The notes under the pieces were generated by a model, which had not been told where the DNA came from, did not search any database, and was given only the letters and a program-made list of their open reading frames with translations. A DNA stretch of 64,000 nt from Caldisphaera lagunensis DSM 15908 (GTDB taxonomy: Archaea; Thermoproteota; Thermoprotei_A; Sulfolobales; Acidilobaceae), in the NCBI RefSeq assembly GCF_000317795.1, contig NC_019791.1, positions 806,001 through 870,000 on the forward strand. The letters are read 5' to 3'. The position numbers and the translations under genes are program-made. How positions within the stretch are numbered: position 1 is the stretch's first letter; every line of letters begins with the position of its first letter. Shown here in pieces: positions 1-49,868 of this stretch.

Positions 1-985
1 TAAAGTTGTGCTCAGGTATCATATATATTCTATTCTGAAAAGCTTTACATTCTTTTGTAAATATGCAATTTTCTTTGCATCCAGTAATTTTTATGCATTC
101 ATTTGTGCATGAGGTTTTACAAACGGGATCTTTTGTCTTGCAACAGCTTCTACCAAATGCCCATAGAAAATCATCTAGTATAAAGGGGTCAATGCCTGAA
201 TATTGGGATACCATTTTATATGCCTGTCTAACTGATAGTCTTAATAAAATATCTTCCCAATCAGAAAATTCAATATTAGCATAAATTTTCTCTCTTGTTG
301 TATCGTCAACATCTACAATACCTAATCTTAAAGCAATTCTCGTTAAATGATTATCTATTGGTAACTCTTTATTGTATGGATCATTAATGCTTAATATAGA
401 TCTTCTTTCCAAAAATTTTGCTAATAAAAAAGCCTTTTTTTCTACAGGATCTTGATATGCCTTAAAAATTTTTAAAATATCGATAAACCCATTTCCGTAG
501 TCCCTTCTTAGATATCCTTTAGATATTGTTATTATATCATAGGGATCGCTAAAGTTTTTCTTAATCTTTATCCCAATATCCTTTAATAGCTCATGTCTTA
601 CTCTAATATCGCTAGGATATATTTTTTTACCTTCTTTATTTTCAATAGTAAGCCATTTGGTTACGGTATCTATATTAATATTTGCTAAATTTTCGGGATA
701 GAAAAATGAAGGATCATCTTTATATTTTAAAATACCTAGCTTATATAATGCATCCGCCCCATGATAAAACTTATTTTCAATAAATCCCTCAAAAGGTTTA
801 TCATGGAATCTTAATCTATGATCTATAGATACCATAACTAAGAAATATAGGAAAACATTTTCTTTTGATTCTGTTAATGGTGGAAAATAATTTTCATCAT
901 CATACATATCAATATTTTTCATTTTTAATGATTTTAATTGTGATCCTAATTTTTCGCAGGATTCTTGATTAATTTTGACTTGCAT
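1..985 (-). CDS. HhH-GPD-like DNA glycosylase family protein with Cys-rich tail (partial)
   Basis: Minus-strand frame that stays open from about 985 to the window edge, so the 3' end is missing (about 328 codons visible). The visible protein is mostly helical. It contains a stretch reading LPIDNHLTRIALRLGIVD and later FILDDFLWAFGRSC, which resembles the C-terminal helices of HhH-GPD glycosylases such as AGOG. It is followed by a tail with about ten cysteines (roughly bases 28-146) that could hold an Fe-S cluster. I cannot name the exact family. The start at ATG 985 is chosen because GGCGA lies 4 nt upstream and a TATA-like TTTAATAA lies about 32 nt upstream. TTG 1012 is an alternative. It is divergent from the small gene at 1058. 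Any repair role is inference. Confidence 0.6.
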   Translation of the reverse strand, partial: MQVKINQESCEKLGSQLKSLKMKNIDMYDDENYFPPLTESKENVFLYFLVMVSIDHRLRFHDKPFEGFIENKFYHGADALYKLGILKYKDDPSFFYPENLANINIDTVTKWLTIENKEGKKIYPSDIRVRHELLKDIGIKIKKNFSDPYDIITISKGYLRRDYGNGFIDILKIFKAYQDPVEKKAFLLAKFLERRSILSINDPYNKELPIDNHLTRIALRLGIVDVDDTTREKIYANIEFSDWEDILLRLSVRQAYKMVSQYSGIDPFILDDFLWAFGRSCCKTKDPVCKTSCTNECIKITGCKENCIFTKECKAFQNRIYMIPEHNF

Positions 986-1057
986 TTTATCGCCTATTTC
1001 ATCTATAATCAAATTAATTATTAAATCCCTGTGCCCTTAATAATATAAGGAGGGAAA

Positions 1058-1333
1058 ATGGCAGAACAATGGTTAATAGATTCTTCAAAAATAATAGAAA
1101 AAGCAAGGAATTTATCTGAAGTAGAGAAAAAGGTTTTCAAATACTTTTTAGAAAGCATTTCAGTAGGTGATTTAAGGGCAATTATGGAATTAGAGAAAAA
1201 AGGAATAAAAGATCCTCGTTCAGTTATTGAGAATTTGATTTTAATGGGCCTAATAGAAAGAGGTAATTATTGTTATAACTTGCCTTATCCATTGAGGGTT
1301 TATATATCTAAGCAAGGTATTCCTGAAATATAA
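1058..1333 (+). CDS. Small winged-helix-like protein
   Basis: 91-residue protein behind a strong GGAGGG site 5 nt before ATG. The sequence is helical and charged (SEVEKKVFKYFLES, then PRSVIENLILMGLIERGN and a short beta-like end). This is the shape of an archaeal winged-helix DNA-binding domain, with a recognition helix near residues 52-65 and a wing after residue 66. It is 20 nt upstream of the nucleoside phosphorylase and probably co-transcribed with it, so it may be a local regulator. The family is not identified with certainty and the regulatory role is inferred from fold and size. Confidence 0.55.
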   Translation: MAEQWLIDSSKIIEKARNLSEVEKKVFKYFLESISVGDLRAIMELEKKGIKDPRSVIENLILMGLIERGNYCYNLPYPLRVYISKQGIPEI

Positions 1334-1353
1334 TTCTTCTAGGGGGTAAGAGG

Positions 1354-2049
1354 ATGAAAAAAGTATATCATTTAGATGCTGATGAGGTCCCAAATAGGGT
1401 CATTATTATGGGAGATCCTCAGAGGGTAATTAATTTATCATTATTATTGGAAAATCCTGTTGAAATAAGCAAAAGTAGAAATTTGTTTATTTATAAGGGT
1501 TATTATAATAATAAGGAAGTTGCCTTAGCATCTCATGGTATAGGTGGTCCCAGCGCAGCAATAGTTATTGAAGAATTAATTAAATTAGGTGCAAATGTTT
1601 TGATTAGATTAGGAACTGTAGGTTCGCTAAAGAAAGAAATTGATGTAGGTGATGTTATAATACCTACAGGTGCTTCATATTGGCATGGTGGTGCAGGGCT
1701 TGGAATGTATTTTAATAATATCTGCCCTCCAACAAATCCAAGCTATGATTTAGTTTATGATTTAATTAAAGAAATTAATAATAACCAAATAAGGTATCAT
1801 GTTGGTTCAATCTTTTCAAGTGATTCATTTTATGCCGAGAAAGATTATATAGATATATTAATAAAATTAAACTTCATAGGAATTGAAATGGAATGCGCGA
1901 CTTTATTTGCAATTTCAAATCTAAGAGGCGTTAAATCTGCATGTTCATTAGTTACAAGCAATAATTTAATAAAAGGTACAAAAGGGGATTATAATGATGT
2001 TGTTAAAAGGATTGCCAAAATAATATTGAATGTCATTACAAGCAATTAA
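1354..2049 (+). CDS. Purine/uridine nucleoside phosphorylase (PNP_UDP_1 family)
   Basis: 231 residues, the normal length for the hexameric NP-I family. Diagnostic segments are the phosphate-binding MGDPQRV near residue 20, SHGIGGPSAAIVIEELI near residue 60, IRLGTVGSL near residue 88 and the ribose-binding IEMECATLF near residue 174. The family splits nucleosides with phosphate into base and ribose (or methylthioribose) 1-phosphate for salvage in the cytoplasm. Crenarchaeal relatives include methylthioadenosine and purine phosphorylases. Substrate preference (MTA, inosine/guanosine or uridine) cannot be read from the sequence. GGGGG lies upstream of the ATG. It follows the winged-helix gene closely. 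Confidence 0.85.
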   Translation: MKKVYHLDADEVPNRVIIMGDPQRVINLSLLLENPVEISKSRNLFIYKGYYNNKEVALASHGIGGPSAAIVIEELIKLGANVLIRLGTVGSLKKEIDVGDVIIPTGASYWHGGAGLGMYFNNICPPTNPSYDLVYDLIKEINNNQIRYHVGSIFSSDSFYAEKDYIDILIKLNFIGIEMECATLFAISNLRGVKSACSLVTSNNLIKGTKGDYNDVVKRIAKIILNVITSN

Positions 2050-2117
2050 TATTTAATATATTTATTATATATAGATAAATATTTTAACTTATACTGTAGC
2101 AAAAATGTGAGGGAGGA

Positions 2118-3293
2118 ATGATGGACAATAAACGCAGAGCATTGATATATACTTCATTAGGGCATTTCCTTAATGATAGCTTTATTATTGTATTTTCCAT
2201 ACTTATAGCATATTACCTAGACATGAAAATATCTGCATCCTATCTTGGGGTTATGGGGGCATTAATTAACATATTATCAGGTTTAATAAGTATGTGGGTA
2301 GGTATAATTGCTGATAGAAGAGGAGTTCATGCAAAATTAATGCTTTTAGGATATGCCTTGATTGGATTATCAATTATTTTATATGCAATATCATTCTTAT
2401 ATATAAAATATGATTTAATATTCATAGCAATTGCATCAATATTTTTAGGAACAGGCTTGTCTTTTTATCATCCTTTAGGCGGGTCAATATTACAACACAC
2501 ATTTGACCCTAGGGATTCACCTAGAGCTCTTGGAATTAATGGTTCTTTTGGCAGTATAGGGAGAGCATTATTTCCGGTTATATTGGTATTCACAATAAAT
2601 TATTTAGGAGGCCCATTAGCTCTTTCTATTATTGGTATTTACACATTTATTATTGGATTTATTGTATTCTATGGATTAAATCCAATAAAAATAGAATATA
2701 AAATAAATAAGGATTCAACCAATAAGGTTTCATTAAGCTCTTATTATTATGTTTTGATACCTTTAGCAATAGTTATATTTATTAGGGCAATGTTTATTTC
2801 AGGTGTACAAACATATGTGCCAACATACTTATCTCATTTACTTAATTCAAAAGAAATAATGAGCATTATTTTAACTGTTTCATATGCAACAGCAATATTT
2901 GGTCAACCGTATTTTGGAAAATTAACTGGAGATATTGGGGGAAGGAAAGTAGTGTTTTTAACAACTATTTTAGCTACATTATTTTATATTGGATTTTTAT
3001 TAATTAAAATTAAAATAATTATGGCTCTTATGTTTGTATTATTTTCACTTTTTGCATTTAGTGGATTCCCTGTTTTATTAGGTTATGTAGGTCAAATAGT
3101 AGATAGAAATGTTTCAGCACAAGCCAATTCGTTGATATGGGGGATTGGTAATACAATAGGAGGTGCTATAGGTATTTTAATAGGGGGGTTATTATTAAAT
3201 AAAATAGGTTTCTATAATGATATGTTAATTTTCGCAATAATAGCTGTAATATCAACGGCTTTATTACCATTAATACCAAGTAAGAGAAAATAA
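2118..3293 (+). CDS. MFS transporter
   Basis: 391 residues with about 12 hydrophobic helices and the family signature after helix 2 (GIIADRRGVHAKLM) and again in the second half (GKLTGDIGGRKVVF). Length and pattern are typical of the major facilitator superfamily. The substrate is unknown. Its place behind the nucleoside phosphorylase makes a nucleoside or base possible, but this is only context. GGGAGG precedes ATG 2118, with ATG 2121 as an alternative. A TATA-rich stretch at about 2052-2080 suggests its own promoter. It converges with the UspA gene, leaving only 2 nt between the stops. Confidence 0.85.
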   Translation: MMDNKRRALIYTSLGHFLNDSFIIVFSILIAYYLDMKISASYLGVMGALINILSGLISMWVGIIADRRGVHAKLMLLGYALIGLSIILYAISFLYIKYDLIFIAIASIFLGTGLSFYHPLGGSILQHTFDPRDSPRALGINGSFGSIGRALFPVILVFTINYLGGPLALSIIGIYTFIIGFIVFYGLNPIKIEYKINKDSTNKVSLSSYYYVLIPLAIVIFIRAMFISGVQTYVPTYLSHLLNSKEIMSIILTVSYATAIFGQPYFGKLTGDIGGRKVVFLTTILATLFYIGFLLIKIKIIMALMFVLFSLFAFSGFPVLLGYVGQIVDRNVSAQANSLIWGIGNTIGGAIGILIGGLLLNKIGFYNDMLIFAIIAVISTALLPLIPSKRK

Positions 3294-3295
3294 AT

Positions 3296-3724
3296 TTATG
3301 GTACAACCAATACATCAGCTTTAGTTGTTTTACCTGCTACCTTGCTAGTTACACTACCCAGAATTAATCTTTCAAATCTTGATAATCTTCTCCTACCTAA
3401 CACTATCAGGTCACAATTATGGGTTTCTGCATAATTTAATATAGCATCTGCAGGGTCTCCAGAAAGAACTTCATATTTAGCATTAAACCCTTCAGACAAT
3501 AATTTATTTGATATTTCAGATAATTTTTTCTTTGTTGAATCAATTATTGCAGCACTGTTAATAACATCAGGACTAACAATTTCTCCAACTATTGCTGATG
3601 CAGGAGGTACAACAGTTATTAAGCATATTTCTGAATTTAGCACTTTGCCTAATTCAACAGCTTTAGATAATGCCCTTTCCCCACCTTCAGAACCATCATA
3701 ACCAACAAGAATCTTTTTATACAA
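3296..3724 (-). CDS. Universal stress protein (UspA family)
   Basis: About 142 residues from TTG 3724: a Rossmann-like core beginning YKKILVGYDGSEGGERAL and ending with the nucleotide-binding LGRRRLSRFERLILGSVTSK. The G-2x-G-9x-G(S/T) ATP-binding pattern is visible. The same frame stays open up to an ATG at 3850, but that extension has no similarity to the family and runs through structured RNA sequence on the other strand. A GAGGTG site ends 5 nt before TTG 3724, so the shorter form is preferred. UspA proteins are cytoplasmic stress-responsive nucleotide binders. The specific role here is unknown. Confidence 0.85.
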   Translation of the reverse strand: MYKKILVGYDGSEGGERALSKAVELGKVLNSEICLITVVPPASAIVGEIVSPDVINSAAIIDSTKKKLSEISNKLLSEGFNAKYEVLSGDPADAILNYAETHNCDLIVLGRRRLSRFERLILGSVTSKVAGKTTKADVLVVP

Positions 3725-3790
3725 ACTTTCACCTCTATTTATAATATGTGATCTAATAATATATAAATGTTTGCAGATAATATTAATTAA

Positions 3791-3849
3791 TGCCCGATGA
3801 AGACCGCTGCAGGCGCGATAGATGAGCTTGGCCTGTGTTACAGAGGGCA
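3791..3849 (+). ncRNA. Possible C/D-box-like small RNA
   Basis: A GC-rich island in AT-rich surroundings, closed by a perfect TGCCC/GGGCA stem (3791-3795 with 3845-3849). Inside the stem are a GATGA C-box core (3796-3800), a D-like CAGA (3841-3844) and an internal GATGA (3821-3825) as C' core. The K-turn G and A positions are kept, but the D box deviates from CTGA and the D'/C' spacing is tight, with guide stretches of about 14-15 nt. This is weaker than the neighbouring RNA at 3872. It could instead be another small structured RNA. Confidence 0.4.
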
Positions 3850-3871
3850 TATTAATGATTAATGGAATATA

Positions 3872-3929
3872 AAGCGGTGATGATGCTGATATCGTCGGAT
3901 AAATGAAGTCAATATCCCCGTCTGAGCTT
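3872..3929 (+). ncRNA. C/D-box guide sRNA
   Basis: Complete archaeal C/D layout. A terminal stem AAGC/GCTT (3872-3875 with 3926-3929) flanks C box GTGATGA (3877-3883). Then come a 12-nt guide (3884-3895), D' box CGGA (3896-3899), a 3-nt spacer, C' box ATGAAGT (3903-3909), a second 12-nt guide (3910-3921) and D box CTGA (3922-3925). Two guides of 12 nt and the short D'-C' spacer match archaeal 2'-O-methylation guides, which act with L7Ae, Nop5 and fibrillarin. The rRNA or tRNA targets were not determined. The 3' end overlaps the stop codon of the convergent alba gene. Confidence 0.72.
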
Positions 3930-4191
3930 ATGCAGTTTTTTCTATAACTATTGTTAAGTAGCTGCTTTTCTTCCCTTTGGTTTTAGACGTACCTATTAAT
4001 GATGAAACTATTTTTAGGCTATCACCTAACCTAGATTTCATAGCTAAATATACTTCAGCAACCTTGCATACATTTTCTCCAACTCCTGTAATTTCTACCT
4101 GCTTTGTTCCTTTATTAAGTTCTAATATAGCCTGTAATGCGTAATCTTCAATAGCTTCCTTTCCCAAATTAATTTTGACTCTTTCTTCCAT
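3928..4191 (-). CDS. Alba-family DNA/RNA-binding chromatin protein
   Basis: 87 residues, the usual Alba size. The pattern matches Alba: KINLGKEAIEDYALQAILELNKG, then the conserved ITGVGENVCKVAEV, a variable loop and a final strand SSYLTIVIEK. It lacks the classical KPVMNYV start and so resembles a divergent Alba paralog. Alba dimers coat DNA and RNA in Crenarchaea. It lies 67 nt downstream of reverse gyrase on the same strand, so the two may be co-transcribed. This would put a DNA-supercoiling enzyme and a nucleoid protein together. Confidence 0.85.
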   Translation of the reverse strand: MEERVKINLGKEAIEDYALQAILELNKGTKQVEITGVGENVCKVAEVYLAMKSRLGDSLKIVSSLIGTSKTKGKKSSYLTIVIEKTA

Positions 4192-4258
4192 TTAATGCAC
4201 CTATCTTTACTTTAACCTTGAGAAATTAAATATATAACTTTTATTTGTCTTTGCAATT

Positions 4259-7200
4259 TTATCTACAATAATTATTCAATCTTTTTACAAATATTTCATT
4301 ATAAACGGAATTAATAAAATCTATTGGGGAAATTTTCTGATTTTCTATCATATCTAATTGCTCTTCTAAAACTCTGCTGCTTTCTTCTGTCAAGAGTTCC
4401 TTAAATATAGAACCCATAAGGTCCTGGTATATCTCAATTCCATTCTTTGTTGGTATCATATATTTTTGCTTTTTACTTTCGATAACATATCCATGTCTTA
4501 TATTTGACTCTATAACTTTTGCATATGTGCTAGGCCTTCCTATGTTTTTCTTCTTCATGAGCATTACTAAGTCACCATTTTTATAAGGCTCTATAAGACT
4601 ACCTTTATAATAAATAACATTATCTACATTAATTTCATATTCAGCATTAGGTTCTTTTTTGATCCAATTTTCAATAATTGGTTTTGATATTAATGTAAAT
4701 CCATCCTTTATTATTGACACGTTGAAATCTTTTTCTATTGTTAATTCACCTAAACTTATTCTTACTACAGCTTTTTCTATTATTGAGGAGGTCATTTGGC
4801 TTGCTAAAAATCTTTCAAATATCATCTGATAAAGTTTGTAATGATACTGAGTCAGTTCTATAGGGACTTTAATAGTTCTTTCTAATATACCTCTCTCCAA
4901 TTCTTGTGCATTTAATGGCCTTGTTGTTCTAATAGCTTCATGTGCTCCTTCCTCACTCCAAGTTCTTGGTTTAAAGTATTGCAATAGATTATTTTTTTGG
5001 AGATATTCTTTTGCTACTTGAATTCCTAATTGAGAAATTCTAATAGAATCAGTTCTATGGTAAGTTATTAAACCTGAATAAAATAGATCTTGCGCTAATT
5101 TCATTGTTATTTGTGCAGTAAAGCCGTATTTTTGACTTGCATCATATATTAATGCATCCGTTGTGTATGGAGGTAATGGATTCATTTCTTCATTATAAAT
5201 CCTTAGAGTTTTTAATTTAATCTTGCTGTTTTTAACAGCGTTTTCAGCTTGCTCTTTATCTTTTGTATAATAATAAATATAGTTTCCACTAGGAAGCTTC
5301 ACCTTTATTTTATATCCAAGCTCTTTCTTGTATTCATTGTATCTATCAATGATCCATCCAAGTACTGGGGTTTGAACTCTTCCAGCTCCTAGCCATAGTT
5401 TGCTGTATTTATTTTGAAGATATTTGCTTGTAGAAAATCCAACCCATCTATCATCTATTCTTCTTGATATTTGTGCATTTACTAAACCTTTATTTAGTTT
5501 CCCAGGATTTCTTAAGGCTTCTAAAACTGCATTTAATGTTACTTCATGGAATGCTGATCTATAAATGTTTTTATTATAGGGTCTTAATGCTAAATATAAA
5601 TCCCATGCAATTTTTTCACCTTCCCTATCTGGATCAGTCATTATCAATATTTGATCAACTTCTGTTGCTAACCTTTTTATTGATTGCAAAATAGATTCAG
5701 ATGTAACGACTATACTTGAACCGCATCTAGGGCATTCATTAGTTTCTTGAGTAAATTGGTAACCACATTTTAAACATCTTTTTATTGAAGTATACAATGG
5801 ACTTATTACAGAATCATTAATTTTTATTCCATAACAGGAATCTGTATTATCATCCACTATCAATTCATATACATGCCCTTTTGATGCTGTTATTGTTAAA
5901 AGATAAACTGTGTTTGTTAGAGGATCTACAGTAGTTGTTTCATAAATATTAAGATTACCTTCCCTCCTCCTAGCAGGTTTACCCCAGAAACTTGATATAG
6001 TCTTTGCCTTAGTAGGGCTTTCAACAATTATTAATTCGCTAACTATATTTACTTTCTTTCCTCCATTTATTTTTCTTGATTCTTCTAATTCTTTTATAAC
6101 TTCATCCAAATTTATGTCTTCAAACTTTACAAAATTTGCTTGACTTATCCATCTCAATTTTTCGCTCATAGATTCAACCAATTCTGGCATCTCATCAATT
6201 ATTATTGATAATCCCTTAGTCATATGACCATAATAAAGCCTGCTAGTTCTTCCACTAGCCTGAAGATAAGTTGGTCCATCAGAAGAATAAAGATATAAAG
6301 CATTTTTTTCGTTTCTTATTACAAATGAGCCTATTTTTATGATATTGCCATCGTTAGGAACATAATTAAGTATTGCATTGTAAACTTTTGGTATCGAATT
6401 ATTTATAACTTCCTTCATCGTCTTCAATATGCCTTTAGCTTCTAATTCTCCTCTAAGTACAGCAGCAACTAATGGAGATTGTTCTCCATACTTAGAAAGA
6501 AAGCTTTCTAAGCTCTTTCTTAGGCTTGAAAATGATTGATCTTTTTCCTCTAAGAACATTACAATTCTTAAAAGTCTCTGAGGAGAAATTAATGCAGTTT
6601 TTAATTCAAGCTTTCTTGCTGGTGTTCCTATGAATATAGCGTATCTTATAATTTCTGGTAAATCAATACCTCTAACAATTGTTCCATATCTGCTTGCTAG
6701 ACCAACAATTACACTTACTTCGTTTCTTTGAAGTTTCTCGATAGCTCTTCTTGAATTTGATATGGCTTGTATGGCATTTATTCCATTTTCTTTAAGCATT
6801 TCTAAAAGAGGCTTTACAGCATTTTTTCCATATGATTGTGAAATAAAAATTATTCCCCCATTACCTAGTTTTTTAACTAATTCAACTGTATCTTTAAATA
6901 CAGAGTTGGAGATCTTATATGTGTCTATAACATTTCTTAAATAATCTGTACCACCACCAATTTCAAATCCTAATAATTCTCTAAATATTAGGTGTTTGAT
7001 ACCTTTTGGCCTACCAGTTGCCGATGCAATAATTAGTTGACCCTTCATTTCTTCATTATTACTCAATAACAGTTTCATTTGTAAATCTGATATTTCCTGT
7101 TCTAATTGCTTTATTTTATCTTCTTTTTTGTTAGATAAGGCTATGCCATAATTCATTTTTTTGTTAACCAACTCGTAAGCTATTTCAACGCTTTCCTGAG

Positions 7201-46759: not shown

Positions 46760-48253
46760 TTAGCTATTTTCTCCTTTTTTAAGCAATTTGTTAAAGTCTA
46801 TAACCTTTACGGTTTTTTCACGATTATTCTCTATTTTAAGAATCATGTGACCAACAGGTAGTTCTTTTAATATGTCAGCATTTTCAATTCCAATTTGCTG
46901 TGATATATCAACGTAATAGTTCGTAAAACCTCCAAATATAACTTTAACTCCCGTATTATCTATTATATTCTTGCCTACATCGCTTGGTATTTGAGTTGCG
47001 TAAATCGTATAAAGTCCCTTACTTCTACCCTCCCTCATAGCAAATTCTAAATGAAAGTATGAATTGTTAACAATTCTCCACGTTTCATCAATAATCAATA
47101 CCAATGGTGTGGAAAAACCTTCTTCACTTGCCTGTAAGGCAAGAGATGATATTAACAAGGAGGCATATACATTCCTTGTTTCGTTAGGCATCTTAGATAA
47201 ATTGTATACCATTAATCCCTTCTTTTCCATATGGCCTTCACATAAATTAATTTTACCCCCTTCACCAGTTTTCATAGAGCTTTCAATTAATTTATTTGCT
47301 AAGCCATTCATCCTAGGAATTTTAACGCAATCATTTATGCCCGGTTCTATATAAAAATCAGCGTTTTTTCTTAATAGAGAGGATAGATCTCCTTTAGGAT
47401 CTATGACAATTATAGATTGAGGATTTTTCGTAATGGATGAAATTAGTGAAAGTTGCATAGCAATTCCTGCTAATAAAACTGTTTTTCCTCTTCCAGTTGG
47501 ACCAAAGATACCTATATGATGTTTAAAATGGTCAGGCCATGATAATAAAACTGTTTTTCCATGTTCATCATATTCTTCTCCAATAACAATCCCTTCGTAT
47601 TCCCCTATATCATCAGCAGAAGTTATAGCAAAAGATGTGGATTCATCAATAGTATCCATTGGATTAGTAATAGATAAAATCTCTTCTATATTTGAAATCC
47701 TCCTTGTTTTTATTTGGGCCTCAGCTTCAACTAGACTCCTAAAAGATTCTGCATATAATTCTGAATCCCTGTCATCTTTATCAATCCAAACTATAAATCC
47801 AAAACTACCTATGTATGGCACTCCTATTCTTGCAACTTCTTTATATAAATCCTCCAAAAATCTTAATCTCTCCCTATATTTTGTTTGATTTGTTGTAGAA
47901 AAACTTAAGTCAGCCTTTTTCATTTCTTCATCAATAAGTTTTAATAATGAGCTTTTATTAACGTTATACATATTTGAAATAAATGAGACGCTTAGCCTTG
48001 ATGATCTGGCAATTCTTATTAATCTCTTAGGTAAATCTTCACCTCCTCTGGGAAGGTTATCTGATATATATGCAATACCAGCATACTTTTTCCCATTGAT
48101 TTCATATTCAATAACCTCGCCCTTCTTTTTTGGTTTTATTTTTAAAGGTAATGCAAGATCAGTTCCAGATCTCATATTTTTTAATATTAAAAATATTGAA
48201 ACAAATGCTATAATACCTATTATAAAATCAAAAATTTGAAAGGGGGTAAGCAT
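46760..48253 (-). CDS. cedB: CedB-like HerA/VirB4-type ATPase
   Basis: 497 residues. An N-terminal membrane helix (about 7-27) is followed by a soluble region and a HerA/VirB4 ATPase core: HHIGIFGPTGRGKTVLLAG with the Walker A (near residue 240), IIVIDPKGDLSSLL, Walker B LVLIIDETWRIV near residue 390 and DNTGVKVIFGG near residue 440. Helix plus HerA core matches CedB of the crenarchaeal DNA-import system, which drives uptake of chromosomal DNA from partner cells. It starts in a TAATG overlap with cedA. The assignment rests on fold and neighbours. Confidence 0.8.
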   Translation of the reverse strand: MLTPFQIFDFIIGIIAFVSIFLILKNMRSGTDLALPLKIKPKKKGEVIEYEINGKKYAGIAYISDNLPRGGEDLPKRLIRIARSSRLSVSFISNMYNVNKSSLLKLIDEEMKKADLSFSTTNQTKYRERLRFLEDLYKEVARIGVPYIGSFGFIVWIDKDDRDSELYAESFRSLVEAEAQIKTRRISNIEEILSITNPMDTIDESTSFAITSADDIGEYEGIVIGEEYDEHGKTVLLSWPDHFKHHIGIFGPTGRGKTVLLAGIAMQLSLISSITKNPQSIIVIDPKGDLSSLLRKNADFYIEPGINDCVKIPRMNGLANKLIESSMKTGEGGKINLCEGHMEKKGLMVYNLSKMPNETRNVYASLLISSLALQASEEGFSTPLVLIIDETWRIVNNSYFHLEFAMREGRSKGLYTIYATQIPSDVGKNIIDNTGVKVIFGGFTNYYVDISQQIGIENADILKELPVGHMILKIENNREKTVKVIDFNKLLKKGENS

Positions 48254-49623
48254 TATATCACTCTTGGTATAATACCTCTCCTGCCTCCTAGCAACCTTGC
48301 TAAACCATACGTTATTGATATAAGCAAGGAAAAGTACATCAAAGGAACGGTAATATAATAAAGAAGCAAATATTCTAAAATTGATGGGGTTAATATATTT
48401 TCTAGTCCTAAATAATTATTTGCATAATCTATATATTTAACGTTTATTTGAGAAACATTGCAATTATTTATGGTAAATATTAAATAAGAATTGCTTTGAT
48501 TGTTTGGCACAAATTTATAATAATATCCCTTCAAATTATAAAAATTCCATTCTCCAAAATATTCTACGAAATTTATATGGGTTAAGTTTGAAACACAACC
48601 ATTTAATGCTCTTATTTCTACATATCCCCCATTACCATAAATGTATACCTTATTACCTAAAATATATGAGCTATAATTCCCATTAACCTCAAATGCTAAT
48701 GTATAGTTTTCATTTTCATATAAAATGTTGTTTGTATATAAATTAAAACCCTGATTGTTAAAAGTTAAATTATATGGATAAAATGGGTATGGATATAGTT
48801 TAAACGCTACTCCATCTATTACAGAGAAAATATAAGATGGAACTTCGCTGGGTAATGGTATCTCATCTCCATAATATGGGCTAACTATTTCACCATTATT
48901 ATCTGTTTTATATAATGCTATCTGTTGATATGAATTGTTATATGTATAAACATAAATTAATGAATTTTTAATAGCATTACCTCTATATGTTGCTTTAGCA
49001 TTAACAAACGTTAATCCTAAACTCATTGCTTGTCCATTTAAATTTACACCGGCTGATTCTGCAATATTTGTTGTAAAAACGGGTAAAAGCTGTAATCCAA
49101 TGCTAAAAACTAATATAAATGATATGAACCAAGCTCCAGCATCTCTTGCAATTCTAAAAGGTATTGAATATAAAACGATTCCAAACATTAGTAAGGTTTG
49201 GCCTAAAGAATTTACTATAAAATATATCCCCCAAAGACCCGCTAAGAAAATTATTTCTGCAGTTAAAGCGTCATTAATTGGTGAAACTAATGATCTTATC
49301 TGGGAGGCCAAAGGAATTTTGCTTGATACTGCAAGTATTTCCAATAAGAAGGCTTTTATTGTTATACTCAAAGAGATCGCATTTGAATACCATAAGTTAA
49401 AGTATCCCCATGATCCTCCTAATGAATTTGCTAAGTTATTTATATAGTTATAAATAAAATATATTGATATTATAATTATAAACGATAAAATTGAATCTTT
49501 TATAAGTGAAGAACCCCATTTTTTAAGGCCTTTAATAGGTATTGGTAAAGCTATTATTAAGACACCTATATAAAAAGTTAGAAGAGATAAATTTATTGCT
49601 AATAAATAATAAAAATAATCCAT
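48253..49623 (-). CDS. cedA: CedA-like DNA-import channel protein with pilin-like N-terminus
   Basis: About 456 residues. Numbering is from the upstream TTG at 49632. Helices lie at about 8-30, 48-66, 85-105, 125-155 and 165-187 and one near the C-terminus (about 425-447), with a long polar, beta-like, Tyr/Asn-rich segment (about 190-415) that is probably outside the cell. This segment makes it longer than the small CedA of Sulfolobus. Residues about 29-48 (PIPIKGLKKWGSSLIKDSI) are nearly the same as the loop of the neighbouring small two-helix protein. CedA is the VirB6-like membrane channel of the Ced system. Start ATG 49623: AGGTTGAT lies 5 nt upstream. Confidence 0.72.
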   Translation of the reverse strand: MDYFYYLLAINLSLLTFYIGVLIIALPIPIKGLKKWGSSLIKDSILSFIIIISIYFIYNYINNLANSLGGSWGYFNLWYSNAISLSITIKAFLLEILAVSSKIPLASQIRSLVSPINDALTAEIIFLAGLWGIYFIVNSLGQTLLMFGIVLYSIPFRIARDAGAWFISFILVFSIGLQLLPVFTTNIAESAGVNLNGQAMSLGLTFVNAKATYRGNAIKNSLIYVYTYNNSYQQIALYKTDNNGEIVSPYYGDEIPLPSEVPSYIFSVIDGVAFKLYPYPFYPYNLTFNNQGFNLYTNNILYENENYTLAFEVNGNYSSYILGNKVYIYGNGGYVEIRALNGCVSNLTHINFVEYFGEWNFYNLKGYYYKFVPNNQSNSYLIFTINNCNVSQINVKYIDYANNYLGLENILTPSILEYLLLYYITVPLMYFSLLISITYGLARLLGGRRGIIPRVI

Positions 49624-49628
49624 TTTTA

Positions 49629-49868
49629 TCAACCTGTTATTAAATTAACGACGTAAACAATGAAACTAAACAAAGAAGATCCAATTGCAAGCCAAAAAGC
49701 TGCCCATATAGAATCCTCTATTAAACTTGAACCTAATCTCTTTAATTTGTTTATTGGTATTGGAGACCCCCTAATGGTCCATCCAACACTCCATGTTAAT
49801 AAGAAAAGTGCCCAAGCTAATGCGGTAATTCTTTCCGTAATTTGTTGGACAAATGTGATAATATCCAT
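49629..49868 (-). CDS. cedA1: CedA1-like two-helix pilin
   Basis: 79 residues: two membrane helices (about 14-32 and 52-72) joined by a short basic loop with SPIPINKLKRLGSSLIEDSI. This is the shape of CedA1, a VirB2-like subunit that forms the import pilus. GGTGAT lies 3 nt before ATG 49868, and an ATG at 49892 is less likely. It is the first gene of the cedA1-cedA-cedB unit. The stop is 5 nt before the CedA start. No separate CedA2 gene was seen next to it. Confidence 0.7.
   Translation of the reverse strand: MDIITFVQQITERITALAWALFLLTWSVGWTIRGSPIPINKLKRLGSSLIEDSIWAAFWLAIGSSLFSFIVYVVNLITG

Follow-up and report, generated by a model that had tools for sequence, protein, structure and literature searches.

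The stretch of DNA analysed here (the window, 64,000 nucleotides) comes from the genome of the heat-loving archaeon Caldisphaera lagunensis DSM 15908, which consists of one contig of 1,546,846 bases. It contains three consecutive genes on the reverse strand that form a chromosomal Ced system for DNA import, which is a domesticated machine resembling type IV secretion. The first gene, cedA1 (49629 to 49868), encodes the Ced pilin, a protein of 79 amino acids with two helices, and the loop SPIPINKLKRLGSSLIEDSI occupies residues 35-54 (49707 to 49766). The second gene (48253 to 49623) encodes a CedA/VirB6-like channel protein of 456 amino acids, and the third (46760 to 48253) a CedB-like ATPase of the HerA/VirB4 type with an N-terminal hydrophobic stretch. 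The most plausible start of cedA1 is at 49868; it was preferred over an open reading frame of 87 amino acids that begins upstream, because the related sequences begin at the methionine of 49868. The most plausible start of the channel protein is the ATG at 49623. The initial annotation described both genes and both loops, each between two helices, and all of these are present; the channel loop LPIPIKGLKKWGSSLIKDSI, however, had been placed at residues 29-48 by counting from an upstream TTG, and it corresponds to residues 26-45 (49489 to 49548) when counted from the ATG.

The 79-residue protein scored 121.9 bits against the NCBIfam model NF041797 (CedA1), above the curated cut-off of 100. It matches the A. 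pernix pilin (PDB 8dfu; Beltran et al. 2023) closely over 77 residues (phmmer E 1.4e-29), and the same structure is the top Foldseek match of its predicted fold (E 3.4e-6, TM 0.71). The two share the predicted hairpin and no meaningful difference was found between them. By sequence and model the protein is thus a CedA1 pilin, which may form an extracellular pilus in the host. The 456-residue protein matches NF041796 (CedA) with an E-value of 1.1e-34 and 120.2 bits; since this is under the cut-off of 330 bits we call it CedA-like, although it is a homologue at the same position of the locus. It also shows the broader marks of a CedA protein: it adjoins cedA1, has several transmembrane helices and matches a broad CedA profile along its length, and its AlphaFold model has a pLDDT of 91.3. 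The ATPase has a Pfam DUF87 match over the cut-off (1.3e-8); against NF041017 (CedB) it reaches 1.8e-14 and 53.3 bits, under the cut-off of 700 bits, and is therefore named CedB-like. A CedD-like ATPase is encoded elsewhere in the same genome (1258385-1259371; 241.6 bits against a cut-off of 600). According to work cited in PMC9905601, CedA, CedA1 and CedA2 make up a membrane complex, and PMC11868833 describes the Ced system as having no known VirB3, VirB8 or outer-membrane parts.

The CedA-like protein begins with a hairpin (residues 1-70; 49414 to 49623), followed by further helices, a beta-rich domain that is predicted to be extracellular (residues ~200-412; 48388 to 49026, from secondary structure and profile coverage) and a last transmembrane helix. 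The CedA of Sulfolobaceae (NF041796, ~260 aa) is homologous over the first ~190 residues, including the pilin-like hairpin, and over the last helix, whereas the window protein carries an additional ectodomain of ~210 residues, found also in most relatives outside Sulfolobaceae. The short CedA proteins (~260 aa) cover only positions 1-200 and 409-461 of the profile, lacking the ectodomain and keeping the last transmembrane helix. The model of CedE, a CedA paralogue of Saccharolobus islandicus, matches the window CedA at 2.5e-24 (under its cut-off) and the pilin at 4.8e-9; CedE is shorter and is reported as an extra copy specific to Saccharolobus (PMC11868833). The ectodomain weakly resembles transthyretin-like domains and the beta-sandwich domains of pilins, and a Foldseek search with the full CedA model returned beta-sandwich proteins for this domain, none of them below 0.001. 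Positively charged residues are concentrated in the hairpin loop (mean K/R 2.8), in residues 153-164 (2.0) and in the C-terminal tail (3.0), with almost no D/E. Following the positive-inside rule and the secondary structure, these three segments would be cytoplasmic and the ectodomain outside, giving five membrane crossings.

The pilin and the front of CedA resemble each other far more than chance would allow. A single-pair BLASTP alignment of the two window proteins gives an E-value of 1e-7 over 36 residues, and in their loops 14 of 20 residues are identical. The CedA1 family model matches the CedA N-terminus at 2.1e-5. Profiles built from alignments of 46 CedA1 and 67 CedA proteins align with hhalign over 66 columns (probability 97.4, E 1.2e-11), spanning almost the whole pilin and the first ~70 residues of CedA, and when the CedA profile was searched against all PDB sequences the best match was the CedA1 pilin (9.3e-10). 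The predicted folds agree as well: the AlphaFold helices lie at residues 3-34 and 40-78 in the pilin and at 2-25 and 31-67 in CedA, the same helix-loop-helix. Nor is the shared segment a loop common to membrane proteins at large: in a set of 5,336 open reading frames, the CedA1 model matched no unrelated protein at E <= 10, only CedA1 and CedA proteins. Neither of the two outcomes that the initial annotation named as refuting its idea, a match in unrelated two-helix proteins or differing folds of the hairpins, was thus observed. The proposal of the initial annotation that a homologue of the pilus subunit is built into the channel protein is therefore borne out by the profile alignment of residues 1-70 and by the common hairpin. 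The homology itself is already known: it was reported by Beltran et al. in 2023 (PMC9905601, Discussion), and is not developed in the available sections of Wu et al. 2025 (PMC11868833).

This arrangement extends far beyond C. lagunensis. A match to the CedA1 family was found in 177 of the 229 genomes of the host's class, and mostly there are exactly two, the pilin and the N-terminus of CedA. With 71 additional loci, retrieved at roughly one per genus, the window makes up a set of 72. In 71 of these, including the window, cedA adjoins cedA1; in the exception (locus L063 of genome G118) CedA is encoded elsewhere in the genome. The hairpin is present in the CedA of all 70 aligned pairs. Over the 20 loop residues these pairs share from 5 to 14 identities (mean 8.3), the highest value being that of the window; its pair is the extreme of a feature that runs through the whole family and is not special to the window. 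Judged by these comparisons of sequence, the CedA1 pilin has an ancient paralogue in the front of CedA, and nearly every relative with a Ced system has kept it. Two CedA1 loci (L121 and L188) come from records entitled Nitratiruptor sp. and Euryarchaeota archaeon, for which binning errors are our guess.

Outside the class, three genomes of the same phylum encode CedA-like proteins of ~280 aa, each next to a small, hydrophobic protein with two helices. In one of them (L206, 4126-5429) the two proteins of the pair match at E 1e-6 and both read F-x-PGVSR, unlike the Ced loops; in the second (L205) the CedA-like protein matches the CedA1 model at 3.2e-4; in the third (L207) BLASTP found no match between the pilin and its CedA-like neighbour. 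The three pairs look Ted-like, and a search of the PDB for TedC matches of these proteins gave none. Right after the CedA-like gene, L207 has a membrane protein of 1174 aa (2129-5653) with a hairpin-like beginning, LPVP..., and L205 one of 1365 aa (672-4769) that also begins hairpin-like, LPILQFRRWG; the CedA hairpin model gives the latter a score of 0.0079. Within the window CedA, a second loop, LYSIPFRIARDAGAWFIS (49117-49182, residues ~148-169), has a motif G-x6-P ... R-x-A-G-A-x-F-I like that of the hairpin loop. The comparison of the two loop profiles, made after the second loop had been noticed, scored 19.8 over 23 columns, a value reached by one of 900 column shuffles, with an HHalign probability of 13.5%; this loop is tentatively regarded as an internal repeat of the hairpin loop. 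Because of the resemblances in L206 and L205 and of this repeat, which scores above 899 of the 900 shuffles, one could imagine that captured pilin hairpins are the core around which VirB6-type channels are built, with an N-terminal docking hairpin that tracks the pilin loop in each lineage and a weaker second repeat at residues ~148-169, a generalisation that we hold to be decidedly unlikely.

The pattern of conservation in the 70 pairs (numbered below by columns of the hairpin alignment, marked col) shows what the paralogue has retained. G14, P21 and P23 (col) are invariant in both the CedA1 and CedA families, K28, K/R29 and D37 (col) are nearly so, and where the pilin has G31 (col), CedA has G or A; in the numbering of the pilin itself, P36, P38, G46, E51 and D52 are invariant. 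Nine positions invariant in the pilin are not kept in CedA: W4, F7, W11, W15, R/K18, G19, E36, G48 and F52 (col), that is, three Trp, two Phe, two Gly, R/K and E. As read from these alignments, CedA preserves the loop (P-x-P, K-K/R, G/A, D), whereas the helix signature of the pilin, whose residues would be those that pack one pilin against another, is gone. This bears on the idea, put forward in the initial annotation, that the CedA hairpin serves as the base of the pilus or as its first subunit, the hairpins forming a base ring continuous with the CedA1 lattice. Such a ring could draw on the homology over nearly the whole pilin, on the common predicted hairpin and on the proposal that in R388 the VirB6 pentamer is the platform for five-fold growth of the pilus (PMC9259494). 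However, the lost helix signature argues against an interchangeable first subunit, the first helix of the CedA hairpin falls ~8 residues short of that of the pilin, and the hairpin is joined in one chain to the rest of the channel. In R388, moreover, the assembly site is placed atop the VirB6 dome and not at the N-terminal helices, whose helix-1 signal is assigned to pilin recruitment (PMC9259494), and a recent review describes the platform model as still untested (PMC12857230). We therefore consider the base ring unlikely. An N-terminus in which the pilin loop persists between helices that no longer bear the pilin signature accords better with recruitment of the pilin than with incorporation as a first subunit.

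A direct link between the pilin and the hairpin was also sought in their variation. Distances among CedA1 proteins correlate with those of the CedA hairpin when the rest of CedA is controlled for (partial r 0.30), but the correlation is not specific to the hairpin, two other CedA segments being higher (up to 0.37) and several close. The partial Mantel signal (p 0.001 against random permutation) was accordingly dropped as evidence of co-evolution, since it did not exceed that of other segments of CedA. Loop identity within genomes exceeds that between genomes with p 0.007 without control for family and 0.087 with it. By loop BLOSUM score, cognate pairs resemble each other slightly more than do pairs shuffled within families (p 0.002), a result that is weak because eight tests were run, and the second helix shows no excess likeness of cognate pairs over such shuffles. 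Taken together, these tests are negative or weak and do not establish a contact between CedA1 and the hairpin. The lack of excess co-evolution in the distance test is what plain common descent would give, with the loop kept as a good insertion or turn signal and no present link between pilin and channel; the suggestion by Beltran et al. (PMC9905601) of a shared export pathway, and of the evolution of one protein from the other, points the same way. Both proteins nevertheless preserve the loop letters across ~70 genera, a degree of conservation beyond what a generic turn would require, and the CedA1 model matches no unrelated two-helix protein among the 5,336 open reading frames, so that this explanation appears very unlikely.

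A further point of comparison is the VirB6 protein of R388 (TrwI), likened to CedA by the literature and not by alignment, whose N-proximal membrane helices are the proposed site of pilin recruitment. The 50 top co-evolving pairs between VirB2 and VirB6 all fall on VirB6 transmembrane helix 1, and mutants of this helix lower conjugation (PMC9259494). Only the two N-proximal helices of VirB6 span the membrane (PMC12857230), and the CedA hairpin may correspond to them by position. A VirB2-VirB6 similarity is also reported by Beltran et al., where the published profile link to VirB6 concerns Pcal_0766, which is TedA (PMC9905601); VirB6 was absent from the listed Foldseek matches of our CedA model and from the PDB matches of the CedA profile. 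By this analogy a role in docking and recruitment is plausible and closer to the known behaviour of VirB6 and VirB2 than a first subunit. We propose that the CedA hairpin is a fixed docking site for CedA1, a reading to which we assign a probability of roughly 0.5. The hairpin would be a degenerate, non-polymerising pilin that stays permanently in the membrane, with its positively charged loop facing the cytoplasm near the ATPase. Its helices could offer CedA1 a pilin-like docking surface, from which the docked subunit would then be extracted and added to the pilus.

The same loop could instead be common to both proteins for the sake of one cytoplasmic partner, the CedB or CedD ATPase, which would move pilins and gate the channel without any need for contact between CedA and CedA1. 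It is mainly the basic loop, predicted to be cytoplasmic, that is kept while the helix faces have diverged, the CedB-like ATPase gene directly follows cedA in the window, and an open reading frame of similar size, a putative ATPase, occupies the same place in the sampled members of the host's family. In an assembled pilus, however, the loop would be out of reach of the ATPase, and we hold this explanation to be improbable.

The docking reading touches the question of how conjugative pili join the membrane channel. To the published homology this analysis adds that the pilin copy occurs almost throughout the class, and that in CedA the loop has survived but the helix signature has not. This pattern of loop kept and helix lost separates docking from polymerisation as testable ideas, and a channel protein with a recognisable copy of its pilin offers a clear place to mutate.
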